Shown one piece after another: positions 47,120 to 60,390 of a stretch of 64,000 bases of DNA; within the stretch, counting starts at the first letter, position 1, and each line of letters opens with the position of its first letter. Source of the stretch: a virus; the IMG/VR virus record IMGVR_UViG_3300035070_003385, positions 1 through 64,000 of that record. One strand, given 5' to 3'. The translations under genes and the position numbers were made by a program. The notes under the pieces are model-generated. The model was not told the DNA's origin and searched no databases. It worked only from the letters and a program-made list of their open reading frames with translations.

Positions 47120-47995
47120 TTATGGTCTAAAAGCTCGTTTTGTTTTTTTATAATTTTTAGGGTTAGAACTTTTTGAAGCTGTAGGAGTCATACCCAATGT
47201 GCTTACGGCACCTAAAGATCCTTTAAATATATAACTTCCTACATGTTGCAATTCCATCCATGGACACATATGCAATTTGATTCCAATTTTTGTAGCATTC
47301 CTACAAAAGAAATAATCTTCTGATAAATATCTTTTTGAATTTGGGTCTATTTCGCAATCAAAAAAAGCTGTAATTTCGTGAGTTCCGTCAAAGTTTTTTG
47401 TTCTTACATGGTCTGGAATATATTTAAGTTCTGGATATGCTTCTGAGTATTTTTCCAATACTTCACGTGGTATTAACATAAATCCTGTTCCTGCTTCGCT
47501 TACTGCAACAGGTTCGTTTATTTTAAATGATTTTACACCTTCCGCCATATTAAAAACGTAATCGCCAGCATAATAGTCAAGGTCAAACGGATTTTCATCA
47601 GCCTTTCCTAACTCAACTGCAGTCTTAATTTTTTCCCATGCAATAGTCTTTTTAGGATATGGCCCTGTCATAATATCGTAGTTTTCTGGTTGCATTGTTT
47701 GAATTCCTAATAACGTTAATACGTCATTAGCTTTAAATCCAATATCTGAATCAATAAACATCAAGTGGGTGCAATCCGAGCGAAGAAATTCATCTGCTAC
47801 GTAATTTCTTGCACGCTGAACTAAGCTTTCATTAAACAAATAATAAAACTTAAGCTCAATTCCGTATTTTGCACACATTGCCGAAAGATCGTTAGTCGAT
47901 TTACAAAACGACCCTGCGCATTGACCACCGTACATTGGTGCTCCAATAAATAATTTGTATTTTTGCAAATGTTCTGTTGTAATTTGGATATCCAT
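47120..47995 (-). CDS. GT-A-type glycosyltransferase
   Basis: A nucleotide-sugar-binding signature is clear: LVQRARNYVADEF, then CTHLMFIDSDIGFKANDVLT, with D-x-D as the metal-binding motif of GT-A enzymes. A later E-A-G-T-G-F-M-L segment and SEDYFFCRNATKIGIKLHMC match acceptor/metal regions of such enzymes. It has no membrane segment. It follows DexA and precedes the clamp operon. It could glycosylate modified DNA, virion protein or a host glycan; the modification-gene neighbourhood favours DNA, without proof. Confidence 0.75.
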   Translation of the reverse strand: MDIQITTEHLQKYKLFIGAPMYGGQCAGSFCKSTNDLSAMCAKYGIELKFYYLFNESLVQRARNYVADEFLRSDCTHLMFIDSDIGFKANDVLTLLGIQTMQPENYDIMTGPYPKKTIAWEKIKTAVELGKADENPFDLDYYAGDYVFNMAEGVKSFKINEPVAVSEAGTGFMLIPREVLEKYSEAYPELKYIPDHVRTKNFDGTHEITAFFDCEIDPNSKRYLSEDYFFCRNATKIGIKLHMCPWMELQHVGSYIFKGSLGAVSTLGMTPTASKSSNPKNYKKTKRAFRP

Positions 47996-48005
47996 AATAT
48001 ATTCC

Positions 48006-48632
48006 TTAAAGTAATTCTAAATCGTTTTCTGCACGATGTATTTGTTGAAATCTAATTACGTCAGCAAGAATATCCCAGGCACTATCGTGTTTTTTAAAGT
48101 TTTTATTCCAAGTATTTTCATCGATCATTGGAATAAAACCGTTTTGTTTTGGGAAGTTTAGCTTTGCATCAATATAAGTACGAGTATCGCGAACTTTCCA
48201 ATATTTAAGGTATTCCTCGAGATGAAGCAATTTATCTTCAGCTTCAAAAATACGAGAAAGAATGATTGGGTCAAACGTATTAGAACGGCTCCACCAATAA
48301 TCTATTTTTGGAGAATCAATTAAAAACTCATGAAAGCTTTTTACGAATTCTTTAACTGTTAGATCTGATTTTTTCGGAGAAACATTTGCACGGACCTCAG
48401 GATCTTGCTCTTCCCAAAATTGCAAAGTACTTTTATCAATTTCCCACCCATAGTTTTTAACCTGGTCAGCAACCGAAAGCTTAAACTTTTTTGTTTCGGT
48501 TATACTATTAAGTGTATATGGATTTGACAAAAAGCGATCCATATTAAATACCATTACAGAACAATCTACGATAGCGCACTTTGATGCGTCCTTACCCATA
48601 GTTTCAAAATCAATAATAAAGTGATTACTCAT
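48006..48632 (-). CDS. dexA: DexA-like DEDD exonuclease
   Basis: The first DEDD motif is at residues 8-10 (FIIDFETMG). Later WWSRSNTFDPIILSRIFE gives motif II and KKHDSAWDILADVIRFQQ motif III with H-D. T4 DexA is 227 residues; this is 208. It degrades single-stranded DNA 3' to 5', and in T4 participates in host DNA breakdown or DNA metabolism. It overlaps the C5 methyltransferase stop by 4 bases. Confidence 0.85.
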   Translation of the reverse strand: MSNHFIIDFETMGKDASKCAIVDCSVMVFNMDRFLSNPYTLNSITETKKFKLSVADQVKNYGWEIDKSTLQFWEEQDPEVRANVSPKKSDLTVKEFVKSFHEFLIDSPKIDYWWSRSNTFDPIILSRIFEAEDKLLHLEEYLKYWKVRDTRTYIDAKLNFPKQNGFIPMIDENTWNKNFKKHDSAWDILADVIRFQQIHRAENDLELL

Positions 48633-49843
48633 GCAAAGAATTCCTCCAATGTTGCCATATCAGTTTTCCCGAGCGGATCGTTTTCCATTCTTTCATAATG
48701 ATTATTTTGGCGTAAATAATTTGTATCAGATAGTTTTAATTCTCCACGAATAAACTTACCAATTTCAGTGTGTATATCTCGAGACGTAGGTACTGGCACG
48801 TTCTGGGCAATGTGGTTCATTTTTGCGAGGCCACCAACGAGTTCAAAGTCGTCAGGAAATCCCATCATGTGCAGTGCCTCACGTATAGTTAAAGAACGAT
48901 CGTGGATAGGATGAATAGTATCGGCAAGGTTTCTACCGATTACCGCATTCATACACTCGTTGAAAACATGAGTAGAGCTGTCCCATACTCCTTTACCAGC
49001 CGCAAACTTTTTAATTGCATGATCTGATACCTTAATTCCGCGTTCGTGGCCAATGTCTTTAAACCACTCGTTTGCTTCTTCGAGTAATCCTTGGCGTTGG
49101 ATATACGTAAAGGCAGTAATGTTTTGATTGCGAATTAAAATATCCCTTGGATTTTCGTTTGTTTTGGATTTAAGAAACTGGAAGTATGGTTCATCATCGA
49201 GCTTTTGGTTAATAATTAAATCCTGCTGTAGAGTCTTTTCATCAACCTCAGTTATATAGTCCCTAAAGTTTTTACGATCTCGTTTGTACCAGGACATGAT
49301 TGGAGCTTTTTCTGATTTCCAGCCGATCGCAAAGGTACGATCGCGAGCCTGAGGAATACCGTGATACTTAGTAGAAGTTTTATATAGAGTTAAACTATAA
49401 CCTCTTTTGTTGCAAATGTCAAACAAATTGTTCGCAACTTCACGACCTTTATTTGTATATAGCGCTGGAGCATTCTCAACTACAACTGCCTTTGCTCCGA
49501 ATAAATCAAAACCGTCCTCAAATACTTTGTACATCCATTCGTTTTTTGCACAACCTGCGCCTTTTGCTTCCTCGGTCTTACCAGTATTTAATTGCGATAG
49601 CGCAGCACAAGGTGGAGTACCCGATACAACGTCAACCTTATGAATAGGTGGACCTTCGTCTAGGAGTCGATATTCCAATCCACGACCTTTTACATTATTC
49701 TGATAGTTGACATAGTGACTATCATTTGCCTGAAATCCATCGTAGGAATAGATTGCCTCTGGCGGTTTACCAAAAGCCTTTTCCGCTCCTAGCATTTGGC
49801 CACCGATAAGTGGTATATGTGATGCCCATGTAATATTGCTCAT
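48629..49843 (-). CDS. DNA cytosine-C5 methyltransferase with clamp-like C-terminal tail
   Basis: Catalytic C79 lies in SGTPPCAALSQL (motif IV), followed by motif VI VVVENAPAL (E123-N124) and motif VIII QARDRTFAIGW. Motif I is weak (HIPLIGGQMLGAE). A C-terminal motif X-like segment sits near residue 320 (ADTIHPIHDRSLTIREALHM). The family methylates C5 of cytosine in double-stranded DNA. The last residues are DMATLEEFFA, nearly the same as the neighbouring glycosyltransferase. A candidate sigma-70-type promoter (TTGACA-17-TATAGT) lies inside at 49394-49422. No restriction partner is visible nearby. Confidence 0.88.
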   Translation of the reverse strand: MSNITWASHIPLIGGQMLGAEKAFGKPPEAIYSYDGFQANDSHYVNYQNNVKGRGLEYRLLDEGPPIHKVDVVSGTPPCAALSQLNTGKTEEAKGAGCAKNEWMYKVFEDGFDLFGAKAVVVENAPALYTNKGREVANNLFDICNKRGYSLTLYKTSTKYHGIPQARDRTFAIGWKSEKAPIMSWYKRDRKNFRDYITEVDEKTLQQDLIINQKLDDEPYFQFLKSKTNENPRDILIRNQNITAFTYIQRQGLLEEANEWFKDIGHERGIKVSDHAIKKFAAGKGVWDSSTHVFNECMNAVIGRNLADTIHPIHDRSLTIREALHMMGFPDDFELVGGLAKMNHIAQNVPVPTSRDIHTEIGKFIRGELKLSDTNYLRQNNHYERMENDPLGKTDMATLEEFFA

Positions 49844-49855
49844 TATTCTTATTCC

Positions 49856-51100
49856 TTATGCAAAAAAGTCTTCAAGTGTAGCTACAGTTTTCTTTTTATA
49901 CTTGCTAGTATCCGGGCGGGTATAACTTGGATCCACTGAGGACATAATCTTGTTGTTTATAAATGTACCGTCGTAATATTCTGGTTTAAGAATTGCTTTA
50001 CGCAAATTGGTAAGTACTTGTTCATACCGCTCTTTATTTTCAATAAGAGTCTGCATGCGTTCGTAAAACTCGGATGGAGTCTGTGGACGAAGAAACATCG
50101 GAATGGGCAGATGCCCTTGAGTATCATATGAAGGATGTAAAAAAGGAATTACACCTGCATGTATCATTTCAATATACTTAGATGTAGTCCAACCTTCTTT
50201 AATCGGAATGATGAAGGTAAACTTTACATCTTGTAACTTATTCTGCAGTTCACTAAGATGAAGGGATCCTTTGAAACGGCTGTCATCTCCAATTACATCT
50301 GACCATTTACCATATACTTCTACTTCATTAAACTTATTCAGGACCCATTCCTTGAGTAAGTTATAACGAGATGGTTTACCTTCGTTGAGAACGACCATAA
50401 AGTTTGTATTGCGATCTGTGTTTACTTGTTCACTATATTCATAATCACCACAGAACGCGGTTTCCATACCAGCATATTCTGATTTCACGATACGAGTAAT
50501 ACGTTCCTGGTCTTCGTAGTTACGAATAGCAAACGTCTCATATTCATAATCATACTGACCGAGAGATTTCATCGGCATATGGAATAAATCACGCGGTTGT
50601 TTTATCGTATAGCGAGGATCATTTACGATTTCAACGTAAGGTGGCTTTTCTTCATTCAGCCACGCGATAATTGGAGTCGTGTACCACTTGGACATATCAA
50701 GAGTTGCGGCAGGTTTTCCGTCGTTCCCTTCTCTTACCTTTTGAATACGATTTGGAATAGTTACGTTACTCATTTGACCAATCATCATAATTGTAAAGTC
50801 GAGTGTAATATTTTTTTCCTTAAAGTAGGTAATGATATGATTAAAATAAGCTTCTGACATAGACAATGGAATCCCTTGCCATATATCAATCACGTTATCA
50901 TATGTAAATAATTTGGTTTTTTCGGCATCAGATAGAGTAGCATAATCAGAACGACCTATGATATAAAAATTTTTATCCGGATTGTTATTTGCTACAGCGC
51001 GTAGAGTACACGATGCTTCGTTGTCTCCACCGATTGGAGAATACTTGTTTGTTCTAAATTTAATAGATTTGCCTACTTTTGCAAAGCCAATGTTTTTCAT
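49856..51100 (-). CDS. GT-B-like glycosyltransferase (candidate DNA glycosyltransferase)
   Basis: The 414-residue chain starts MKNIGFAKVGKSIKFR, a GT-B-like opening strand. The C-terminal half matches the layout of T4 beta-glucosyltransferase: EVYGKWSDVIGD, then FTFIIPIKEGWTTSKYIEMI and HAGVIPFLHPSYD, with regularly spaced helices before the tail. The region resembles the donor-binding part of GT-B enzymes (E in YIEMIHAGVIP). The tail is KKKTVATLEDFFA. It lies between the C5 methyltransferase and the HAD gene. A DNA glucosyltransferase role is inferred from neighbours and layout; a GT-B sugar transferase acting on glycans is the alternative. Confidence 0.65.
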   Translation of the reverse strand: MKNIGFAKVGKSIKFRTNKYSPIGGDNEASCTLRAVANNNPDKNFYIIGRSDYATLSDAEKTKLFTYDNVIDIWQGIPLSMSEAYFNHIITYFKEKNITLDFTIMMIGQMSNVTIPNRIQKVREGNDGKPAATLDMSKWYTTPIIAWLNEEKPPYVEIVNDPRYTIKQPRDLFHMPMKSLGQYDYEYETFAIRNYEDQERITRIVKSEYAGMETAFCGDYEYSEQVNTDRNTNFMVVLNEGKPSRYNLLKEWVLNKFNEVEVYGKWSDVIGDDSRFKGSLHLSELQNKLQDVKFTFIIPIKEGWTTSKYIEMIHAGVIPFLHPSYDTQGHLPIPMFLRPQTPSEFYERMQTLIENKERYEQVLTNLRKAILKPEYYDGTFINNKIMSSVDPSYTRPDTSKYKKKTVATLEDFFA

Positions 51101-51101
51101 T

Positions 51102-51464
51102 TTAATCCCATTCTATAAATTTGACAAAGTCTTGCGGTAGCATTGCTTTGTCATCAACATAATAAATGCCGTATGGTTTACCCCATACTATTTCGTCGTA
51201 TGGTACCTCGTGCTTTTCCAACCAATCAGTTGTAATTTTTCCGACATCATCGATGATTTTATTTATATCGCCGTCATGAGTTACCATCCTACGAGCAGTA
51301 TGAATAACTATCCTATAGCCTTTTTCTTTTGCCTTTTTTAAACTATTAATCATTTCTTTTTTGGGACTTGCCATTCCATACTTTTTATGGCTATCTTTTC
51401 TTCCGTGAATTGGAATGCAGATAGTATCGTCAAGATCCATTACTATTGTTTGTTGCGTATTCAT
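51102..51464 (-). CDS. HAD-family phosphatase (polysaccharide-type)
   Basis: HAD motif I is at residues 10-14 (MDLDDTI), motif II RIVIHTARR, and a D-D-K near the C-terminus (YYVDDKAM) as motif IV. At 120 residues it is a minimal capless HAD, similar to phosphatases in capsule and nucleotide-sugar clusters. The start lies inside the C-terminal end of the upstream nucleotidyltransferase gene (35-base overlap). It may remove phosphate from a sugar-phosphate precursor. Confidence 0.75.
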   Translation of the reverse strand: MNTQQTIVMDLDDTICIPIHGRKDSHKKYGMASPKKEMINSLKKAKEKGYRIVIHTARRMVTHDGDINKIIDDVGKITTDWLEKHEVPYDEIVWGKPYGIYYVDDKAMLPQDFVKFIEWD

Positions 51465-52920
51465 TCACATAATCTCTCATTCGTTTTTGCCTATCAGTAC
51501 AGTCATAATGCAGTTTAATACAAGTAGCAATAAGCAACGCACCGCCGTCAATAATTTCATTATACTCTGCTTTATAGTATTTGTCAACTAGTTTTTCAAA
51601 ACTTTTTGCAACATACTCTGGATATTTATGCCCGGTCACTAGTTCATTATAACCGTGGTAAAGATCGTGTGATAGTTTGCACATATCGTATAAGTGATCT
51701 CCACCACATCCTATATGATCACCATAAGAGCCTCGAGGGTCTAACAATGTAATACTGTCGTTGTATGGATTATATAATATGTTTGCGAAATGCAAGTCTC
51801 CATGCATAGCTGCAACTGGTTTTGCTTTTTCGAGACAACGTTTTGCCAAATCATTATAATAATCTTCAGAACATTCTAAACGTTCTGCTGTTTTATCAAC
51901 CCACATTTTTTTAGCATTATTTTGAAAGTCAACTGCAAACTTAAGTGTTGGTTGTTTATGAAAATGATTTTGCATTGCAATAATTACTTTTTCAATCAAA
52001 TAATCTATGGTGCTGTTTGATATATCTTCGTGTGCAAATAAATCAGACAATAAAACACCTGACTCATATGACATTGATAAAGCATAATCATCTTTAAGCA
52101 TCTTAGGAATAAACATACTTTGAACTGAATCGAGCGATTCGTACCAATTCTTTTCGTTCATTATGGTTCGTACCGCAAAGGTATTATTGTGAGATGGGAT
52201 TTTTGTAATAACGTTAATATCTGATTTGTATTCAAAAGAATTAAATTCACGTGCTTTGAATGTAAGGAACTCAGCGCAAGTTTTATGATATGACGCAATG
52301 TCTCCAATATCATACCAACGCTCAGTGCTTATATTATTAAACTTGACATTATATCCATACAATTCAAGCGCGTCGGATATATCATACTCTTTTGTATTAA
52401 TAAATGACTGCGCAGCTTTAAACCCATCAGCAAAACTATATAAACCTACGAGTGCTACCGCATCTCTAACAGTTTCTTTAGGTTTATTATAATACTGATT
52501 TCCATCCCACATACACCATGCAGAGTGATCTTCAACTTTTTTAGTTAAAAGAAAGTCTTCACCCAATGGCATGTTTTCTTCAAGGATAATAGCATCGCCT
52601 AACCAAACTACAAGAGGATTTGCAAAATCTAACAAAGATTGACATCCAACCGCTATAGCATCACGGGGACCGTTTAACGATCCCTGCTTTACACATTCAA
52701 TATTATTATATTTGCTTTTAGATGCCCATTCACGTATATCATTATGCTTGCCATCAACAATAATAATTTTACCTACATCAGGGGTGTTTTTATAAATGGA
52801 CTCAATGATATATTCAATTGTAGGCTTTCCGTGAACTCTGACCATAGCCTTTGAGCAATTTGATGTTAAAGGCCGAAGTCGAGTTGCTTCACCTGCTGCT
52901 GGTATTACTACATTGATCAT
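51430..52920 (-). CDS. Bifunctional nucleotidyltransferase/phosphotransferase (LicC/LicA-like fusion)
   Basis: Start at 52920 (MINVVIPAAGEATRLRPLTS), with GGAGAG upstream. The N-terminal domain (about 1-230) is a sugar-phosphate or phosphocholine nucleotidyltransferase: G-E-A-T-R-L-R-P and KAMVRVHGKPTIEYIIE. The C-terminal domain (about 260-480) is an APH/choline-kinase type phosphotransferase: HGDLHFANILYN with the catalytic Asp, then LLDPRGSYGD. Fusions of this sort make activated alcohol or sugar donors. A sigma-70 consensus lies inside (51559-51587). The substrate is unknown; a link to the neighbouring glycosyltransferases is inference. Confidence 0.78.
   Translation of the reverse strand: MINVVIPAAGEATRLRPLTSNCSKAMVRVHGKPTIEYIIESIYKNTPDVGKIIIVDGKHNDIREWASKSKYNNIECVKQGSLNGPRDAIAVGCQSLLDFANPLVVWLGDAIILEENMPLGEDFLLTKKVEDHSAWCMWDGNQYYNKPKETVRDAVALVGLYSFADGFKAAQSFINTKEYDISDALELYGYNVKFNNISTERWYDIGDIASYHKTCAEFLTFKAREFNSFEYKSDINVITKIPSHNNTFAVRTIMNEKNWYESLDSVQSMFIPKMLKDDYALSMSYESGVLLSDLFAHEDISNSTIDYLIEKVIIAMQNHFHKQPTLKFAVDFQNNAKKMWVDKTAERLECSEDYYNDLAKRCLEKAKPVAAMHGDLHFANILYNPYNDSITLLDPRGSYGDHIGCGGDHLYDMCKLSHDLYHGYNELVTGHKYPEYVAKSFEKLVDKYYKAEYNEIIDGGALLIATCIKLHYDCTDRQKRMRDYVNEYATNNSNGS
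51559..51587 (-). promoter_or_regulatory. Sigma-70 consensus promoter inside the nucleotidyltransferase gene
   Basis: TTGACA (51587-51582), 17 bases, TATAAT (51564-51559) on the minus strand. It would feed the HAD gene and the genes downstream. Being inside coding sequence it may be chance, but the match is complete. Confidence 0.5.
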
Positions 52921-53557
52921 ACTGTTCTCTCCATGCATCGTATTCATCTTCAAGATTAACCCACTGCATTTTTGTATATTGCGTTTTCGTAGAAAATCGT
53001 CTATCCCATATTATCCACATATAGGCAATCATCCCTCCTATTTGATCCTTCTTTTCAATAGGTTCAACAAGGCCAGAATTAAATTTAGCGCGATCTGATA
53101 AAAATATTATATCACTTGGTGGGTTATTTGTAAATAGTTTTTTTCTCTTTTTTCCTTCAAGAAACGTTAAGCGAAGAAACATTGCAGTATAACTGTATTC
53201 ATCAATCCACTTTTCAGCCAACTTACGAGGCAGGTCCTTATGATACGGTGGATTAGTTACTACACCTTCGGCAAAGTCTTGCTTTGGAGTCTCAAGAGCG
53301 TCGTGTGATGTATTTATGCTACATAGAGAGTCTTCGTATTCGTGTAGGTCATGACTTAAAACATTATGACCATTTCGAGCAAGTTCAACAGAAATGTTAC
53401 CCTTTCCTGCGCAGGGTTCAAAAATGTTTTGCGGTGGTCTATTATATTTGCATAACACGTGGGTAGCGAGCGGAGGAGTTGGGTAGAAATCGTTTTTCTT
53501 ACGATTTGGGTCGTTCTTTTTTACGCCAACGTATATATCGCTAAGACTACTTGCCAT
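52889..53557 (-). CDS. NPPY-type DNA methyltransferase-like protein
   Basis: The N-terminus KKNDFYPTPPLATHVL leads into the SAM-binding FEPCAGKGNISVELA, and the catalytic motif is VVTNPPYHKDL (NPPY). The order SAM region before NPPY fits N6-adenine or N4-cytosine amino-methyltransferases. At 222 residues there is no obvious target-recognition domain, so it might act as a small orphan enzyme. It overlaps the start of the nucleotidyltransferase by 32 bases and sits beside dCMP deaminase. Confidence 0.8.
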   Translation of the reverse strand: MASSLSDIYVGVKKNDPNRKKNDFYPTPPLATHVLCKYNRPPQNIFEPCAGKGNISVELARNGHNVLSHDLHEYEDSLCSINTSHDALETPKQDFAEGVVTNPPYHKDLPRKLAEKWIDEYSYTAMFLRLTFLEGKKRKKLFTNNPPSDIIFLSDRAKFNSGLVEPIEKKDQIGGMIAYMWIIWDRRFSTKTQYTKMQWVNLEDEYDAWREQYDQCSNTSSR

Positions 53558-53560
53558 TAA

Positions 53561-54070
53561 TTAAACCTCCAAAACAGTAACTTGCACGCCGCTTTCTTTA
53601 AACATTGGCAAACTTTGTTGTTCCCATACTTCTTGCCAATTACCTTTATCAGTTTTATCTGTTGGTATTACTACACGTTTGACACCAGCTTGAATGACGC
53701 ACTTAGAACATGAAGGGCAAACTGGCAATCCATAAACGTACAAAGTTGCATCTTTAAGACTTACACCTGAATACAAAGCATTCATAAGAGCATTCATTTC
53801 AGCATGAACAATACGTGGATATTTTTCATCTTTATTATTCAGACGTTCTTCAGTATCAGCAATACCTTTTGGAAAACCATTATAACCAGTAGCAAGAATA
53901 CGGCGTTCATCATTTACAGCCACTGCGCCAATTTTACTTGAAGGATCTTTGCTCCAAGTAGAAATCATTTTAGCCATATCCATAAAACGGTTATCCCATT
54001 TTAGTTCTTTTTCGTCTTGTTCTTTATGCATTCTTCGTATACTTTCCTCATAAAATTCATATTCAGCCAT
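53561..54070 (-). CDS. dCMP deaminase
   Basis: Zinc and catalytic residues are clear: H89-A-E91 (VHAEMNAL) and C118-x2-C121 (VCPSCSKC), with the family segment IGAVAVNDERRILATGYNGF. This is the cytidine/deoxycytidylate deaminase family, of the type encoded by T4 gene cd. It converts dCMP to dUMP and so feeds dTMP synthesis, and it balances dCMP use by the dCMP hydroxymethylase at 58424-59095. Its start overlaps a small upstream stop (TAATG). Confidence 0.92.
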   Translation of the reverse strand: MAEYEFYEESIRRMHKEQDEKELKWDNRFMDMAKMISTWSKDPSSKIGAVAVNDERRILATGYNGFPKGIADTEERLNNKDEKYPRIVHAEMNALMNALYSGVSLKDATLYVYGLPVCPSCSKCVIQAGVKRVVIPTDKTDKGNWQEVWEQQSLPMFKESGVQVTVLEV

Positions 54071-54135
54071 TAGGTGTTCTCCTTAATCCAAACGCATTCA
54101 CTAACTTTTTTATGCCACAAAGTATTCGGATTCAT
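54070..54135 (-). pseudogene. Short ORF or remnant sharing the SECVWIKEN tail (21 aa)
   Basis: MNPNTLWHKKVSECVWIKENT ends at TAATG with the dCMP deaminase start. Its last residues match the C-terminus of the 59-residue membrane protein at 57980-58159 (SECVWIKENP), with 21 of 23 bases identical. It may be a leader peptide, or the remnant of a duplicated gene. Confidence 0.35.
54077..54099. repeat. Direct repeat, partner at 57987-58009
   Basis: TTCTCCTTAATCCAAACGCATTC against TTCTCTTTAATCCAAACACATTC: 21 of 23 bases match. It is within the SECVWIKEN coding end and includes the ribosome-binding region of the next gene. Confidence 0.65.
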
Positions 54136-54172
54136 CAAAGACCCGGAATCCTTCCGCACCATCTAGTACTCA

Positions 54173-54286
54173 TTACTTCTCTCCTATGTAGCTATTTTCT
54201 ATTAGTTCGACAACGCCGGGCGCCACCATAAACAAAAACAAAGACAGTGAAAAAAAGAACATCGCCGCAATTAAATTACCGTTCAT
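54173..54286 (-). CDS. Single-span membrane peptide, 37 aa
   Basis: MNGNLIAAMFFFSLSLFLFM followed by VAPGVVELIENSYIGEK. One hydrophobic helix fills residues 5-25. The ATG overlaps the upstream stop (ATGA), and AAAGGAGAG lies 5 bases before it, so translation is likely. Early small membrane peptides are common in T4-like phages; function unknown. Confidence 0.6.
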   Translation of the reverse strand: MNGNLIAAMFFFSLSLFLFMVAPGVVELIENSYIGEK

Positions 54287-54483
54287 TTTGTCTCTCCTTT
54301 AATGGACGCATCTGTCACTTTCATCTCGTCCATAAATTCATACATTTCTGCGTTGGTGGGGCAATTTTGATAGTAGCTCCGAACGTTATATCGTGCCAGT
54401 TCACATATACTGTCCAAGTCTAGAGATTCAACATACCGTTGTACTGCTAGATCCAGTTTAGCTTGTGTTTTACTGTCCATCAT
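54283..54483 (-). CDS. Hypothetical protein, 66 aa
   Basis: A small acidic, helical protein (MMDSKTQAKLDLAVQRYVES, then YYQNCPTNAEMYEFMDEMKV). It overlaps the upstream gene by 14 bases and the following membrane peptide by 4. No known domain. It belongs to the accessory early gene block promoted from the right. Confidence 0.55.
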   Translation of the reverse strand: MMDSKTQAKLDLAVQRYVESLDLDSICELARYNVRSYYQNCPTNAEMYEFMDEMKVTDASIKGETK

Positions 54484-54724
54484 GAGTGTATCCTTTGCAT
54501 TTTTGACGAGTCTTCAGTTGAGGATTACCATCTTTATTGATCACCATATGGTATTCGATATCATCTTCAAAACGAGTTACAATACGCTCTAAGCTCTGAC
54601 GTTGAAAAATTGCTTCGCACAGGGGAAGCAATTTTTGCTGTATATTATAAACCTTTTCCAATTCATTTAGCGTGTCAATTTCTTCACGCATAGCGTCTAA
54701 CAGTTTCGCTAGATCATCACTCAT
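54470..54724 (-). CDS. Hypothetical coiled-coil protein, 84 aa
   Basis: It begins MSDDLAKLLDAMREEIDTLN, a helical stretch with Leu/Glu heptads, and ends with a Lys/Gln-rich tail with TRQKCKGYTHDGQ. The start shares MSDDL with the next gene upstream, which it overlaps by one base. Function not recognised. Confidence 0.55.
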   Translation of the reverse strand: MSDDLAKLLDAMREEIDTLNELEKVYNIQQKLLPLCEAIFQRQSLERIVTRFEDDIEYHMVINKDGNPQLKTRQKCKGYTHDGQ

Positions 54725-55053
54725 TACTCTTTTCCTTTAAGTTCTGCGAGGGCAGCGCGGGCAATCATGTTGCCATCGCTGTTGCCGTAAAGGTCGCCGT
54801 TACCCAGCCGTGCCAGCTTCTCTAAAGACTCCACCGCCTGCGCCAGCTTGGTCTCAAGTTCTTCGATTCGGTAAAACTTTAAAGCCGTCACCGCCTTTTC
54901 CAGCTTGGCTTCAAGTTCTTCAATCCGCTCCGCTGCTGTGTCTAGAAGGTTCTCGCTGTCGTATAATACGGGCCAGGACATTTCGTAAAAAACATTTGAT
55001 TTATTTCTCAACCGCTTCACTATATTTGAGTTATTTCTTAGATCATCACTCAT
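54724..55053 (-). CDS. Hypothetical protein, Ead-like coiled coil, 109 aa
   Basis: The middle contains RIEELEAKLEKAV and then RIEELETKLAQAVESLEKLA, a tandem copy of one helical motif. The same AADRIKELEAKLEEALEMAL is found in the next gene upstream, so the two are paralogous in part. Similar A-A-D-R-I-E-E-L-E-A-K-L motifs occur in phage Ead/Ea22-type proteins. The DNA here is visibly more GC-rich than the surrounding sequence, which suggests acquisition. Function unknown. Confidence 0.55.
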   Translation of the reverse strand: MSDDLRNNSNIVKRLRNKSNVFYEMSWPVLYDSENLLDTAAERIEELEAKLEKAVTALKFYRIEELETKLAQAVESLEKLARLGNGDLYGNSDGNMIARAALAELKGKE

Positions 55054-55463
55054 TACTTATCTCCTTTGAGTTCTGCGACCCTGTTGCGTCGTTCCTGCCA
55101 CCAGTTATCGTAGCTTTCTGATCGCCAGAAATACCCGCATTCATCAAGAGCCATTTCTAACGCCTCTTCCAGCTTGGCCTCAAGTTCTTTGATCCTGTCT
55201 GCCGCTTCATAACACAAAGCATCTGTTTTGAATTCGCTTATGACTCCAGATACACCTGCTGCGGGTGAGGCTACAAAGACCGTACCATCACGCAGCCGTT
55301 TTACTAATTCGTTCTTTGGCTCGTGCGTCCAACTATACCTTCCGTCAACGTGTGTGCAATCGTTACACAGAGGCTGGCCGCAAGTAAAGCCAGCTATATC
55401 CACATCACACCTCCCATTAGTCACACATCCGCATCCACTGCATTTCTTTAGACCGTCACCCAT
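55053..55463 (-). CDS. Cys-rich N-terminus plus Ead-like coiled coil, 136 aa
   Basis: The start at 55463 (MGDGLKKCSGCGCVTNGRCD) is preferred; the ATG 6 bases earlier is an alternative. Residues 8-40 contain seven cysteines and one histidine arranged as zinc-knuckle-like pairs (CSGCGC, then CGQPLCNDCTH). A helical AADRIKELEAKLEEALEMAL segment follows. It overlaps the downstream start by one base. The sequence is GC-richer than its neighbours. A zinc-binding protein of unknown role. Confidence 0.55.
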   Translation of the reverse strand: MGDGLKKCSGCGCVTNGRCDVDIAGFTCGQPLCNDCTHVDGRYSWTHEPKNELVKRLRDGTVFVASPAAGVSGVISEFKTDALCYEAADRIKELEAKLEEALEMALDECGYFWRSESYDNWWQERRNRVAELKGDK

Positions 55464-55465
55464 TA

Positions 55466-55708
55466 TCAATACCTTCTTTGTCTGTGAAGTTTATCTCTTA
55501 CTCTATTAGTATACACGTTATTGTTATTCTTGTCAACCAGCTCCAATAACAAATCAAGGTCATCGTCATCTAGTTTGTCATCCCATCCCATAACCTCTTT
55601 GAGAGATTTTTTCTGTACATAATATCCACGAGCTTTAAGTTCGCGTACAATCTCTTCGTCACCGAACTCGTCCAAATCTACGTCTACTTCAACTGTTACA
55701 TATGTCAT
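55466..55708 (-). CDS. Hypothetical acidic protein, 80 aa
   Basis: MTYVTVEVDVDLDEFGDEEI and then ELKARGYYVQK are seen in widely spread phage proteins whose function is unknown. A very acidic middle (DDDDLDLLLELVDKN) precedes a basic C-terminus. A complete sigma-70 consensus promoter lies within its 3' end (55508-55536). It is adjacent to the tetrapeptide-repeat gene upstream, with no gap. Confidence 0.6.
   Translation of the reverse strand: MTYVTVEVDVDLDEFGDEEIVRELKARGYYVQKKSLKEVMGWDDKLDDDDLDLLLELVDKNNNNVYTNRVRDKLHRQRRY
55508..55536 (-). promoter_or_regulatory. Sigma-70 consensus promoter inside coding sequence
   Basis: Minus strand TTGACA (55536-55531), 17-base spacer, TATACT (55513-55508). 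It lies within the last 70 bases of the 80-residue gene and 45 bases before the Cys-rich gene. Confidence 0.6.
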
Positions 55709-56218
55709 TTATGTATCCTTATACTCTAAGCTAGTCCAGTACTTCCCTGCGATCTGACCATGAACATTACCAAAGACATTACCTAAGACACTACCTTTGA
55801 CAGTACCTCCGACACTGCCTCCGATGCTGCCTACAACATCGCCTTTGACATTGTAATAGACGTGACCTCCGACATCTCCACAGACATTGCCTACAACATC
55901 GCCTTTGACATTGTTATGGACATCACCTCCGACACTGCCTCCGACATAACCTCCGATATCACCATAGACATCACCCAAGACATTACCTTCGACATTGCCT
56001 TCGACATTACCTTCGACATTACCATAGACATTACCATAGACATTACCCAAGACATTACCTTCAACATAGCCTTTGACATTGCCTTTCACAGTACCTACAA
56101 CATCGCCTTCGACATTACCTAAGACATTCTTAATAAACAAAACTCCGTCTTCGTTCTCATTGAATGTAATAAGCTTTGCGAGTTGATCTAGTTGGCTTTG
56201 AGTTAAATTAGTTTTCAT
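55709..56218 (-). CDS. Tetrapeptide-repeat (G-N/D-V-x) protein, 169 aa
   Basis: The start at 56218 overlaps the upstream stop (ATGA). After a 35-residue N-terminal segment (MKTNLTQSQLDQLAKLITFN) comes a run of about 30 four-residue units of the form G-N/D-V-x (NVEGNVEGNVEGNVLGDVYG), then a short tail GKYWTSLEYKDT. No membrane segment. Alternating Gly and Val at period four suggests a beta-solenoid, comparable in texture to bactofilin-type V-x-G-x repeats, although this is inference. Function unknown. Confidence 0.7.
   Translation of the reverse strand: MKTNLTQSQLDQLAKLITFNENEDGVLFIKNVLGNVEGDVVGTVKGNVKGYVEGNVLGNVYGNVYGNVEGNVEGNVEGNVLGDVYGDIGGYVGGSVGGDVHNNVKGDVVGNVCGDVGGHVYYNVKGDVVGSIGGSVGGTVKGSVLGNVFGNVHGQIAGKYWTSLEYKDT
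55770..56130 (-). repeat. Twelve-base tandem repeat (minisatellite-like)
   Basis: The coding strand contains many copies of a 12-base unit similar to GGCAATGTCGAA, and GGTAATGTCTTG, in frame with the G-N-V-x repeats. Copies differ at third positions and at the last codon, so the array is old or under drift rather than freshly duplicated. Confidence 0.75.
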
Positions 56219-56385
56219 GTGCAACTACCTTCTATTAAGGTTTTACCTGCGTTGATACAAGCCATTTTTAATTCGTGTTCCAATCGCCGTTCTAGGTTCA
56301 TGTCCATGTATCGGCCAAGGCCGGGCAACACTAAAGCCGAAGCAAAAATAGCGATAAATGCCAGGGTGATTAAATCATTTTTCAT
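56215..56385 (-). CDS. Small membrane protein, 56 aa
   Basis: Start at 56385 with GGAGA upstream. One hydrophobic segment (LITLAFIAIFASALVLPGLG) at residues 4-24, then a charged helix, and a C-terminal tail ending GSCT with two Cys (MACINAGKTLIEGSC). Probably a single-pass membrane protein with the C-terminus periplasmic. It is the first gene behind the consensus promoter 56433-56461. Function unknown. Confidence 0.6.
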   Translation of the reverse strand: MKNDLITLAFIAIFASALVLPGLGRYMDMNLERRLEHELKMACINAGKTLIEGSCT

Positions 56386-56432
56386 TTTGTTTCTCCACAC
56401 ATCACAGATTCTTCCTTTGATGTAACTAATAT

Positions 56433-56461
56433 ATTATAACACCAGTTGTTGAGTTTGTCAA
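56433..56461 (-). promoter_or_regulatory. Perfect sigma-70 early promoter
   Basis: Minus strand TTGACA (56461-56456), 17-base spacer, TATAAT (56438-56433), in the 79-base gap after the 214-residue gene. It drives the 56-residue membrane protein and the genes beyond it. Confidence 0.9.
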
Positions 56462-56464
56462 CCC

Positions 56465-57109
56465 CTAATCCCACAAATTTTCGTAATATTTACCAAATAG
56501 TTTCAGTCCATTTGATATACGTTTCTGGTGTGCTTTTCTTCCCTTAGGATCTTCCCATACTAATTTGTAACCACCCAGAAATCCATCACCGGCGCCCTCT
56601 TCAAACTTATAATAATCAGATTCCCAATCATCAAGACACTTTTGCTCAAAGGCCCATATCATTTCATCAAGTACATAGTCCCAACGTTTAAAATAGTTAT
56701 TATCAGGCAACCATCCATTCTCTTTGGGCGGAGCTGATGTGGATTTCAATTCCTTTGGTACATCCTTATCATCAACAGATGGTGCACCATGTTTAGTTTC
56801 TTTTAATTGTTTTAACATAGGCAGAATAATCAAAGAAAGAGTGTCATCCACTGACCACGTATCATAGCTATCAATACGGATTTTTACTCTACGTTGCTTA
56901 CGATCTAAATATAGATTAATGGTATGGTTATAGATCCATTGCAGAGTATCTTCTAGATTGCGAAGAAATGCTTCTTTAAATGGTTCAACCTTATTGTTTA
57001 AACCTTTTTGTCCGTACTCAGGCCAATAATGACCATAATGCTTAATCATATAATTGGTATATACGCTGCTTGTCCAACGATATACGTATGGTCCAATATT
57101 AACTTTCAT
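56465..57109 (-). CDS. Conserved phage protein of unknown function, 214 aa
   Basis: Start at 57109 (MKVNIGPYVYRWTSSVYTNY) overlaps the upstream stop (ATGA). The block VKIRIDSYDTWSVDDTLSLI, then LPMLKQLKETKHGAPSVDDK and DVPKEL, is a familiar phage signature: the M-L-K-Q-L-K-x-T-K-H-G-A-P motif with W-x-x-x-L-D-E-M-I-W-A-F in the C-terminal half. It is found in many T4-like and other large phages without assigned function. No catalytic motif is evident. Confidence 0.8.
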   Translation of the reverse strand: MKVNIGPYVYRWTSSVYTNYMIKHYGHYWPEYGQKGLNNKVEPFKEAFLRNLEDTLQWIYNHTINLYLDRKQRRVKIRIDSYDTWSVDDTLSLIILPMLKQLKETKHGAPSVDDKDVPKELKSTSAPPKENGWLPDNNYFKRWDYVLDEMIWAFEQKCLDDWESDYYKFEEGAGDGFLGGYKLVWEDPKGRKAHQKRISNGLKLFGKYYENLWD

Positions 57110-57300
57110 CCCCAGTCCTCCAATGTGCTTTTCAGTCCTTTTAAAACATGTTCCAACTTTTCCGCATCTAATGTACGACAAGATGTGATCTGATTTGGAC
57201 GGAACGTTCTGCCTTCATCAGTTTCTTCTGTGCGGTCAAGCAATACAAATAGTTCTTTTACCAGAACATCATACTGTTGTGCTTTACTTGTTAGGCTCAT
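57106..57300 (-). CDS. Hypothetical protein, 64 aa
   Basis: Start at 57300 (MSLTSKAQQYDVLVKELFVL), where AAGGAAAG lies upstream; a longer frame to 57396 would overlap the next gene. It is helical with a central RPNQITSCRT. The N-terminal SKAQ-x-Y is shared with the 91-residue protein at 57560-57835. Function unknown. Confidence 0.55.
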   Translation of the reverse strand: MSLTSKAQQYDVLVKELFVLLDRTEETDEGRTFRPNQITSCRTLDAEKLEHVLKGLKSTLEDWG

Positions 57301-57314
57301 GTTTCTTTCCTTAC

Positions 57315-57563
57315 TTAGAAAGTTGCTTTGAATTGTATTGGGCAGTCTTGTGAAGGGCAAACATATCCCATTGGGCCATTCCATTTCATGCCGCATTTAC
57401 GACAAGTGGTTAGCGCAAAGTAGGTTGGATCATGATCGGAGGGTGGCGGTTTATACGGTGATGGCTGAATAGGAACATCTTTTCTCAACAAATATTTAAT
57501 GATCCACTCAAGGTCACGTTCAATCTTATCTAATCTTCGGATATATTCGTCTTTATCGCTCAT
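57315..57563 (-). CDS. Small zinc-ribbon-like protein, 82 aa
   Basis: Helical N-terminus (MSDKDEYIRRLDKIERDLEW) then a proline-rich linker and a C-terminal C-x2-C...C-x5-C region (TTCRKCGMKW, YVCPSQDCPI), a zinc-ribbon pattern. It overlaps the upstream gene by 4 bases. Function unknown. Confidence 0.6.
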   Translation of the reverse strand: MSDKDEYIRRLDKIERDLEWIIKYLLRKDVPIQPSPYKPPPSDHDPTYFALTTCRKCGMKWNGPMGYVCPSQDCPIQFKATF

Positions 57564-57835
57564 TTCATATCCAATCCTTCTTCACAACTACAAGTATAAT
57601 ATTCTACAGTGTCTTCGGGATACCACACAATACATTCTTTAGCCACCCACTCAGTATATGGGATCAAACCTAAGAACTTGTTACGCACTTTTTGATATTC
57701 ATATGTGACACCCAAGCGAGTTACACTTTTACACTCTGGTAACAAATCCACCGGTTCGTATTCCAACCATTCAGCTGGGCAGAATTTGCTGGCATAAACT
57801 TTTTTATAGGCTTGTGCTTTACTTGTTTTACTCAT
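57560..57835 (-). CDS. Hypothetical protein, 91 aa
   Basis: MSKTSKAQAYKKVYASKFCP then WLEYEPVDLLPECKSV and a Cys-containing C-terminus. No known domain. Overlaps neighbours by 4 and 8 bases, indicating one translated run. Confidence 0.5.
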   Translation of the reverse strand: MSKTSKAQAYKKVYASKFCPAEWLEYEPVDLLPECKSVTRLGVTYEYQKVRNKFLGLIPYTEWVAKECIVWYPEDTVEYYTCSCEEGLDMK

Positions 57836-57980
57836 TTGTTTTCACCTCTAGCCATTCACGACAGATTTTAATATAATGATCTCTCTGCCACTTAACTTTC
57901 TCATGTGACAGTTCAGGACGATCAATAGCAATATATTGTATCAACTGTTCAGCAGTCAATGCTTTTGTATATGCGCTCAT
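57828..57980 (-). CDS. Hypothetical protein, 50 aa
   Basis: MSAYTKALTAEQLIQYIAID then a basic, Trp- and His-containing helix (KWQRDHYIKICREWLEV). ATG overlaps the upstream stop (TAATG). No recognised family. Its small size makes function hard to assess, but the coupling to both neighbours supports translation. Confidence 0.5.
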   Translation of the reverse strand: MSAYTKALTAEQLIQYIAIDRPELSHEKVKWQRDHYIKICREWLEVKTNE

Positions 57981-58159
57981 TACGGATTCTCTTTAATCCA
58001 AACACATTCTGAAATATCTTCAGGCGTGTCGTACATACGCTTACACTGTTCATAAGGATGACTCCAACTACCTAGTGATGTTCCGATACCAAGTGCTATA
58101 CCTATCCAAAAAAACTGCTTAAACCCTTGTTTGAAGTCACGCCAAAATGTTTTAATCAT
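57980..58159 (-). CDS. Small membrane-associated protein with SECVWIKEN tail, 59 aa
   Basis: MIKTFWRDFKQGFKQFFWIG and then IALGIGTSLGSW give a basic amphipathic start and a glycine-rich hydrophobic segment (residues 14-32), then a Cys-containing C-terminus ending SECVWIKENP. The same tail ends the 21-residue frame at 54070-54135. ATG overlaps the upstream stop (ATGA). A type II membrane protein is likely; function unknown. Confidence 0.55.
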   Translation of the reverse strand: MIKTFWRDFKQGFKQFFWIGIALGIGTSLGSWSHPYEQCKRMYDTPEDISECVWIKENP

Positions 58160-58404
58160 TTTTCTTTCCTTACTTTAGTCCAAGGGGTTGACCACGTCAT
58201 ACACGCCCACCATAAACACAGTGATACATGAGGTCCATCATAATACATATATTCATATCCAATAAAGCGATTCTCTTTCTTTTCAATCCGGTCAAACCAA
58301 TAGAAGTAATAGAAGTAATGATCAGTTCCGAGTGTTTTCTCAGACTGCCACCATTCAATGCCATTCCATTTGAGTTTGAACTTCCAAGGATACTGTTTCA
58401 TCAT
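58156..58404 (-). CDS. Hypothetical Trp/Tyr-rich protein, 82 aa
   Basis: MMKQYPWKFKLKWNGIEWWQ then many aromatic residues (HYFYYFYWFDR, MYYDGPHVSL). No membrane span is clear despite the aromatic content. It lies directly downstream of dCMP hydroxymethylase. No recognised family. Confidence 0.5.
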   Translation of the reverse strand: MMKQYPWKFKLKWNGIEWWQSEKTLGTDHYFYYFYWFDRIEKKENRFIGYEYMYYDGPHVSLCLWWACMTWSTPWTKVRKEK

Positions 58405-58423
58405 TTTTCTCCGTAATCAACAG

Positions 58424-59095
58424 TTATTTTACAAGATTAAAGTGGCGTTCGTAAACATGTAGGTTCATTACCTGCCAAGTAAGATCACCTTTTGTGATTT
58501 CATATCCTGCTTGATGCAAATCACTAACAGCACGATCCATAAGATGTTGAGCCCAAGCATAATCGTTCTTGTAACCAAAGACTACATCATTTGATCGCAT
58601 TTGAGATACCATATGCAACTTACCATCACGGATATAGAATGTTTGTGCATTGGTACAGATGAAATCAGACTTGCCACCTTCGTTGAATTCAACCCAGATT
58701 GATGGGCGATTGTAAATCATTTGAGCACGACGGCTATCTGGATTTGCAATCAGCTCATCAATTGCGTTATAATATTGATTATAAAACTTTGGCGAATTAA
58801 CTAGGTGGCCATAGTTCGAATTAATATTACCATGTGTATCTGCTGCGTATTTCCAAGCTGCAGGTGGTTCTTTACCTGCACCATGAATATCATAAATGTT
58901 AATAGATCCGCTTTCATACCAAGCCAACTCAGCATCAATATATTCCTGTTTTGGAGTACCAAAGATTGAAGGCTCGTCGGCAATAAAACTTGCACCTAGA
59001 ATTTCAATAGTTTTCTGACCAGTTTTATCGGTCGTAAACCGTTCTGCCTTGAGTTCTTCAATAAAATAGTTACGAATATCATTTACTTTTTGCAT
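58424..59095 (-). CDS. gp42: dCMP hydroxymethylase (T4 gp42 type)
   Basis: Close over its whole length to T4 gp42: TTDKTGQKTIEILGASFIAD, GNINSNYGHLV, NPDSRRAQMIYNRPSIW, SDFICTNAQTFYIRD and MRSNDVVFGYKNDYAW. The catalytic cysteine is C147 (T4 C148). D178 in KNDYAW corresponds to T4 D179, which selects dCMP over dUMP and separates the enzyme from thymidylate synthase. The chain stops at 223 residues, about 20 short of T4. It makes 5-hydroxymethyl-dCMP with methylene-tetrahydrofolate. It overlaps the next gene upstream by one base. Confidence 0.93.
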   Translation of the reverse strand: MQKVNDIRNYFIEELKAERFTTDKTGQKTIEILGASFIADEPSIFGTPKQEYIDAELAWYESGSINIYDIHGAGKEPPAAWKYAADTHGNINSNYGHLVNSPKFYNQYYNAIDELIANPDSRRAQMIYNRPSIWVEFNEGGKSDFICTNAQTFYIRDGKLHMVSQMRSNDVVFGYKNDYAWAQHLMDRAVSDLHQAGYEITKGDLTWQVMNLHVYERHFNLVK

Positions 59096-59580: not shown

Positions 59581-59885
59581 TTTTTAAACCTATCATCGGT
59601 AGATGGATCGCCTTCGATCGTAGTCATTACAAGGATCATCATTTGCGTAAGAGCATGCGACAAGTGTGGTAAACCGGACTCAGGGTCTTCATCTTCACCT
59701 GACATATATGCCATAAGATGTCGTTGAATAGACGAATAATGCCGAGAGACAGGAAATTTGTCAATGTCCTGCCGCCAATTGTTTTCACCATACTTTTTTG
59801 CGCCAAAGCCAAAGACCCGAGCAGCTTCAATGATAGCCTCAGGTGGTACTAAGTGGATCTTTGGTTTACCTTCGTCATACTTCAT
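59577..59885 (-). CDS. dATP/dGTP diphosphohydrolase-like (MazG-superfamily) protein
   Basis: KYDEGKPKIHLVPPEAIIEA, then ARVFGFGAKKYGENNWRQ and HLMAYMSGEDEDPESGLPHL are the signature of the small phage dATP/dGTP diphosphohydrolase family (PF18909 type). E/D-rich helix segments would bind magnesium. The enzyme shapes the dNTP pool; the same family in other phages supports modified-base metabolism. It overlaps both neighbours. Confidence 0.8.
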   Translation of the reverse strand: MKYDEGKPKIHLVPPEAIIEAARVFGFGAKKYGENNWRQDIDKFPVSRHYSSIQRHLMAYMSGEDEDPESGLPHLSHALTQMMILVMTTIEGDPSTDDRFKK

Positions 59886-60390
59886 TACGAGAACCTCTAC
59901 CTTTAATTTCGTTATTCATTATAGGTTGAAAATGTTGGATTGATGCGTCCTCGATAATAGGAGCAATACTCAGATCACCATATTCGACCGTATTAATATA
60001 TTGTATCACAACATCCATAGAATGTAAACCATTTTGTTTTAGATATTCCCGATATTTACGACCTGAAGATTCATGCTGTTCATCAGGACGGCGGAACGAA
60101 CGAGTATGGTTACCTTGCCGCAGATGAATAGAGCTTGTCTTTCCATCGGTCTTACCAACATACAGGATTTTTCCTGTTTTCTTTTCAACCCAACGATAGA
60201 TACCCTTTGCGTAGTTTGCAGCAATGCGGTTTCCATCTTTAATGTGTGGAGTTAAAATCTCAGTTTCAAAACCAGAGTCGGTTTTTGAAAGACGGATTTC
60301 TCCATAGGATTTCGCTTCCGCCCAATAGTCTTCAATTTCGTTAAAGACAGTCTGTTCTATAATAGCGGCAAGTGATTGCAATTTAGACAC
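59875..60390 (-). CDS. GIY-YIG nuclease-like protein, 171 aa
   Basis: The GIY motif is at residues 63-65 (KGIYRWVEKKTGKILYVGKT) and YVG at 77-79, with R91 in LRQGNHTRSF as the catalytic arginine region. Acidic ends and the spacing fit the GIY-YIG superfamily. No helix-turn-helix or zinc finger for homing is seen, so it is more like a small free-standing nuclease. It is preceded by AATAAATA at 60402-60409 and has a 12-base leader. Confidence 0.75.
   Translation of the reverse strand: MSKLQSLAAIIEQTVFNEIEDYWAEAKSYGEIRLSKTDSGFETEILTPHIKDGNRIAANYAKGIYRWVEKKTGKILYVGKTDGKTSSIHLRQGNHTRSFRRPDEQHESSGRKYREYLKQNGLHSMDVVIQYINTVEYGDLSIAPIIEDASIQHFQPIMNNEIKGRGSRNEV

Follow-up and report, generated by a model that had tools for sequence, protein, structure and literature searches.

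The locus considered here lies in IMG/VR virus record IMGVR_UViG_3300035070_003385, a T4-like virus record of 182,738 bases, of which positions 1-64000 form the window that was analysed; it carries genes for which a pathway of cytosine hypermodification with a phage-made sugar donor had been predicted. That original prediction listed genes for gp42, a dCMP deaminase, a C5-cytosine methyltransferase (here C5MT), glycosyltransferases (GTs), a HAD phosphatase and a nucleotidyltransferase fused to a phosphotransferase (here NT), and each is present as an intact open reading frame (ORF), all on the minus strand. A tight run, with overlaps or gaps of 12 bp or less, goes from the dCMP deaminase (53561-54070) through an N6-adenine-type DNA methyltransferase (52889-53557), NT (ORF 51430-52953), HAD (51102-51464), GT (49856-51100) and C5MT (48629-49843) to a DexA-type exonuclease (48006-48632), all likewise on the minus strand. 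The gp42 gene (58424-59095) is set apart, 4.4 kb upstream of this run.

The gp42 protein (Thymidylat_synt, E 6e-15) has 50% identity to T4 gp42 as against 28% to RB69 p048. In alignment it retains the catalytic Cys (T4 C148) and the dCMP-selecting Asp (T4 D179), the latter in a GYKND motif, at which position the RB69-type enzyme has VMQLD. In a FastTree phylogeny it groups with T4 gp42 in a clade of 28 sequences with support 0.996, the RB69 and JS98 enzymes being outside. There is a true ThyA elsewhere in the genome (126416-127321), with Asn at the selecting position where gp42 has Asp. We thus predict that gp42 is a dCMP hydroxymethylase, probably yielding 5-hydroxymethyl-dCMP, such that 5-hydroxymethylcytosine (5hmC) would be made at the nucleotide level. 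The record has no match to PF12851 for a TET/JBP oxygenase, and a TET route to 5hmC in this phage was ruled out as no TET is encoded. The dCMP deaminase (PF00383 and PF14437, E 3e-21) adjoins NT in most relatives, and a PRA-PH/MazG-like pyrophosphatase is encoded at 64091-64501, just beyond the window. The MetaGPA study found that PF00303, PF01503, PF00383 and PF14437 co-occur in metagenome contigs shown experimentally to be cytosine-modified (PMC8670742), and all four domains are encoded by this phage.

In the case of NT, the most likely start is the ATG at 52920, giving a gene at 51430-52920. The N-terminal half is a sugar-1-phosphate nucleotidyltransferase (NTP_transferase, E 4e-14), for which the AlphaFold2 (AF2) model has pLDDT 89 and matches UDP-glucose pyrophosphorylase with Z 24.6. 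The C-terminal half is APH-like, and 33 sequences share its kinase motifs HGDL..N and DPRG without variation. MurU and HddC are among the matches of NT, yet they do not rank above GalU or RmlA, and for that reason the identity of the donor cannot be read from the sequence. The HAD protein has the HAD fold, and across 28 sequences, the RB69 and JS98 proteins among them, all its catalytic motifs are invariant (D10, D12, R58, K96, D104 and D105). Against TIGR01689, the family of the EcbF/BcbF capsule phosphatases, it scores 85.6 bits where the curated cut-off is 162, which makes it a relative and not a member. NT and HAD are homologous to JS98 gp042 and gp041, whose annotations read RB69 orf052c- and orf051c-like, and the RB69 module with these homologs has been proposed to make an arabinose donor (PMC6024577). 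NT is also related to the Thanatos TH1_060 family, via RB69 ORF53_52c. No sugar isomerase of the arabinose-5-phosphate (SIS) type was found as a PF01380 match in the record, which may be incomplete; with no isomerase in the record the sugar phosphate presumably comes from the host. A UDP-sugar epimerase was considered as a pathway member and rejected, since the sole PF01370 gene is related to GDP-mannose 4,6-dehydratase and belongs to a surface-sugar cluster elsewhere.

The GT of 414 aa gave no match in Pfam and PHROG searches, and nothing was found in a sequence search against PDB. Its AF2 model (pLDDT 86) has a GT-B fold and the top PDB match is T4 BGT, with Z 22.5 and rmsd 3.5 over 310 residues at 12% identity; the next non-T4 enzymes follow at Z 19.2 and T4 AGT, the alpha-glucosyltransferase, at about 18. 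Residues E28, D161, R163, R245, K308 and E311 are invariant in 23 family members, and BGT R195, R269 and E272 align with the invariant R245, K308 and E311. The probable counterparts of BGT E22 and D100 are E28 and D161, assigned by hand from strand order; MAFFT did not put D100 on D161. From fold, conserved residues and the exchange of GT families described below, we infer that this is a candidate DNA 5hmC glycosyltransferase.

Comparison with related genomes, a check proposed with the original prediction, bears this grouping out. Scans of viral contigs for the GT and NT gave 91 loci, and there are 25 non-redundant NT loci whose flanks extend 5.5 kb or more upstream and 3.5 kb or more downstream. 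HAD and a DNA-type GT are beside NT in all 25, and HAD adjoins NT in all of the full-flank loci. Either gp42 or TET is present in 24 of the 25, never both together, and the remaining locus, of the Enterococcus 9183 type, has another thymidylate synthase (TS)-family protein, in which the selecting residue is Asp. The NT-HAD-GT set is found with gp42 or TET and a DNA-type GT, and the donor genes therefore track DNA-cytosine modification and not capsule loci, which upholds the core of the prediction.

The arrangement of these genes is far from fixed. The GT position is filled by one of three DNA-type families, namely the family of the window's GT, a T4 alpha-GT-like family (AGT; PF11440/phrog_2888) and TAGT (PF20691/phrog_842), and loci with TET have a TAGT as their GT, TET taking the place of gp42. 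The gene order may be NT-HAD-GT-C5MT, GT-HAD-NT-C5MT or AGT-HAD-NT-C5MT. Pseudoalteromonas phage XG4 (vB_Psh_XG4) has gp42-HAD-NT-GT-GT2-C5MT in a single run, and Stenotrophomonas phage DLP6 has TAGT, HAD, NT and TET. Loci L019, L022, L024 and L127-L180 have a HAD-kinase fusion and a PF01467 nucleotidyltransferase in place of the NT fusion, beside the same GT and C5MT, and since parts are swapped in this way the function appears to be retained though the parts differ. Such exchange of parts with the unit kept argues for function, and not for shared ancestry alone. As separate observations, one lineage of 12 loci (L040:7666-8904 and close relatives) has a beta-ketoacyl synthase gene between gp42 and the dCMP deaminase, and the unrelated jumbo phage Bacillus phage G has two alpha-GT genes, HAD, NTase and a C5MT of the ENAP type discussed below clustered at gp301-gp313 (L108).

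Two GTs of the pathway had been predicted, and here the outcome is divided. While the fold and linkage favour that at 49856-51100, the GT-A-like phrog_1574 protein at 47120-47995 on the minus strand, with a DSD motif and weak matches only, occurs in relatives without modification genes. It adjoins gp45 in phiM12 and Cr30, where the stretches that were read have no gp42 or NT, and is also beside gp45 in many contigs without gp42 or NT, so we take it to be a core gene of the phage group. With 23 of 39 loci anchored on it having neither gp42 nor C5MT, it was rejected as a pathway member.

The call of C5MT as a C5 cytosine methyltransferase holds as regards the domain (PF00145 DNA_methylase, E 1e-20, above the Pfam cut-off) and the catalytic residues, with the Cys of motif IV, the Glu of motif VI and QxRxR of motif VIII kept in 26 of 26 family members. 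These features would suit an ordinary methylase, guarding residual unmodified C or methylating host DNA with no connection to the sugar, and we give that explanation somewhat less than an even chance. However the family is divergent, with PLIGG and not FxGxG as motif I, PCA and not PCQ in motif IV, and ENAP and not ENV in motif VI. Motif I and the Q82 position are altered in all 26, an invariant Ala standing where M.HhaI has Gln82, and in M.HhaI the Q82A change lowers methylation considerably, while bulkier groups are transferred slightly better (PMC10666283). The distribution also speaks against an ordinary methylase. With the unrelated phrog_1574 gene as anchor there are 39 non-redundant loci, of which, in counts that ignore phylogeny, 16 have gp42 together with C5MT, 23 have neither, and none has one without the other. 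There is no such tie to TET, and the TET locus L087 has instead a canonical C5 methylase beside TET that keeps FAGGGG and ENV. The signature of the divergent family recurs in a C5MT of cyanophage S-TIM5, which also has a TS-family protein whose selecting residue is Asp. By its distribution and sequence features C5MT is a constant partner of gp42 and is not to be read as an ordinary methylase. A bolder and rather doubtful possibility is that it is no methylase but a new type of DNA-modifying enzyme acting on 5hmC, an obligate step or partner of 5hmC hypermodification in aquatic T4-like phages; if so it would apply the covalent Cys-C6 chemistry of the C5-methyltransferases to an already substituted C5.

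With the gene identities, the BGT-like fold and the linkage across independent arrangements in hand from computation, we propose a pathway of two branches in which a phage-made activated sugar would be put on 5hmC in the phage's own DNA, and would put the probability of this reading of the sequences at roughly 0.8. In the base branch gp42 would turn dCMP into 5-hydroxymethyl-dCMP, which by homology with T4 would then be phosphorylated and polymerised into phage DNA, with the dCMP deaminase and the PRA-PH/MazG-like pyrophosphatase managing the dCTP pool. In the donor branch HAD would dephosphorylate a sugar phosphate of the host or, in the manner of GmhB, a bisphosphate, after which the kinase domain of NT would give the sugar-1-phosphate and its nucleotidyltransferase domain the nucleoside-diphosphate sugar, from which the BGT-like GT would move the sugar onto the 5hmC hydroxyl in DNA. 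Several points weigh against this proposal. The kinase half of NT is recognised weakly, its weak PDB matches being protein-ribulosamine 3-kinase and maltokinase, and the record has no sugar isomerase that would define the source of the sugar. GT-B folds are promiscuous, identity between the GT and BGT is just 12%, and profile-profile comparison of the GT with BGT or AGT is too weak to stand by itself. The loci are mostly from T4-like relatives, so the linkage is in part shared ancestry, and there are surface-sugar genes elsewhere in the genome.

Those surface-sugar genes (KdsA, KdsB, Gmd, DegT, GT29 and GT8) and the relationship of HAD to capsule phosphatases could be taken to mean that the donor genes and the GT gene serve to put sugars on virion proteins or on the surface of the host, as in capsule or lipopolysaccharide synthesis, and are near gp42 by chance. 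We regard this as very improbable, as the surface-sugar genes belong to other clusters (88-116 kb), gp42 or TET accompanies NT-HAD-GT in 24 of 25 loci, and the GTs exchange with known DNA GT families. Further, a pattern scan of 84,980 species genomes of bacteria and archaea gave one full-length NT relative, which is itself on the contig of a T4-like phage that had strayed into a Flavobacteriaceae metagenome-assembled genome and carries the same cassette (gp43, gp42, GT, HAD, NT and C5MT); on this basis a capsule-type chromosomal origin of NT was rejected. The resemblance to capsule donor pathways that had been suggested has a basis in HAD as an EcbF/BcbF relative, although the donor genes of the relatives are not linked with capsule genes. 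An RB69-type system, with 5-hydroxycytosine as the base and arabinose linked directly to C5, would account for the homology of NT and HAD with genes of the RB69-type cluster, and Mosigvirus DNA does have 5-ara-dC, made via 5-hodCMP synthase (PMC13390438). But gp42 is of the T4 type in both motif and clade, and from its tree a 5-hydroxycytosine base was judged unlikely. In addition the record has no SIS isomerase, the window's GT is of a different family, a homolog of the RB69 arabinosyltransferase ORF003c was found neither in the genome (BLAST, 1e-4) nor in 92 loci, and no relative of the TMK-like RB69 ORF045c was found in the genome or in the relatives' loci. We consider such a system improbable here, and prefer sugar transfer to 5hmC.

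With regard to the other genes, DexA (PF16473, 30-32% identity to T4 and RB69 DexA) is a conserved neighbour outside the pathway. The N6-adenine-type methyltransferase (NPPY; phrog_799, E 5e-42), whose gene immediately precedes that of NT in 35 of 92 loci, is probably a separate modification linked in part of the relatives. A GIY-YIG nuclease at 59875-60390 on the minus strand is tentatively EndoII/DenA-like, as its alignment with T4 DenA includes the C-terminal GxLTIAxI..FxPxxN region; PF09517 (Eco29kI) is below cut-off at E 0.002. It may serve to break down host DNA that lacks the modification. Of the T4 proteins DenB, Alc, Ndd and gp56, none was detected in the genome. Between gp42 and the dCMP deaminase there is a 171-aa protein of short GNVxGNV-type repeats (55709-56224, minus strand), and about 400 bp within about 54282-55814 has 89% DNA identity to Roseobacter phage CRP-6, hinting at a Rhodobacteraceae host. 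A PstS-like phosphate-binding protein (PF12849; 62947-63972, minus strand) is an auxiliary metabolic gene. Elsewhere in the record are a second donor-like pair at 74135-75279 (L005), a HAD-IIB phosphatase adjoining an RfaE-II/TagD-like nucleotidyltransferase, and the phage-encoded KdsA (88013-88792, L006:5013-5792; over the curated cut-off) and KdsB-like CMP-Kdo synthetase (88931-89611, L006:5931-6611). The surface-glycan-like cluster at 107357-116520 (L007) has GT29-like proteins, a GT8, a DegT aminotransferase and the GDP-mannose 4,6-dehydratase relative.

If the proposed pathway is correct, it suggests that phage-made donors for DNA sugars are a widespread interchangeable module and not an oddity of RB69. 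Aquatic T4-like phages would then combine one kinase-phosphatase-nucleotidyltransferase kit with three GT families and two routes to 5hmC, and we predict several so far undescribed sugar-modified cytosines in abundant marine phages. The GTs would be candidate 5hmC glycosyltransferases with new donors, of use in biotechnology.

The idea of a phage-made DNA-sugar donor is not new, as RB69 and Thanatos have homologous donor genes (PMC6024577, PMC12838424), and it is useful to compare the predicted system with those already described. The MupP-AmgK-MurU pathway and GmhB/heptose activation likewise combine HAD phosphatase, kinase and nucleotidyltransferase activities, a likeness that would be an analogy of chemistry and not homology. 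In TET/TAGT glycosylation of 5hmC, the NT-HAD pair is beside TET and TAGT in several relatives and in DLP6, but the phage studied here has no TET and 5hmC would be made at the nucleotide level. T4 shares the gp42, a GT with the BGT fold and, in some of the relatives, a GT of its alpha-GT family, whereas it takes UDP-glucose from the host and has neither donor genes nor the C5MT partner. Shewanella phage Thanatos, which has a deoxypentose on cytosine and in which TH1_060 is the RB69 ORF53_52c homolog (PMC12838424), resembles it in having a protein of the same family as NT, but has a separate UDP-xylose pyrophosphorylase, TH1_063.

The closest parallel is with RB69 and other Mosigvirus phages (ORF53_52c, ORF051c, ORF055c and 5-hodCMP synthase), to which a 5-hydroxy-dCMP synthase has been assigned and which have relatives with measured arabinosyl-cytosine (PMC13390438). 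In both cases there is a homologous nucleotidyltransferase-kinase fusion with a HAD protein, a TS-superfamily enzyme modifies dCMP or is predicted to do so, and the phage is believed to produce a pentose donor itself, or in our case a sugar donor. Here however there is a T4-type gp42, a BGT-like GT and the C5MT-like partner, with no isomerase or TMK-like gene found. As far as can be judged from these comparisons the system would work like that of RB69, yet stands outside it in the type of gp42, the GT family and the isomerase.

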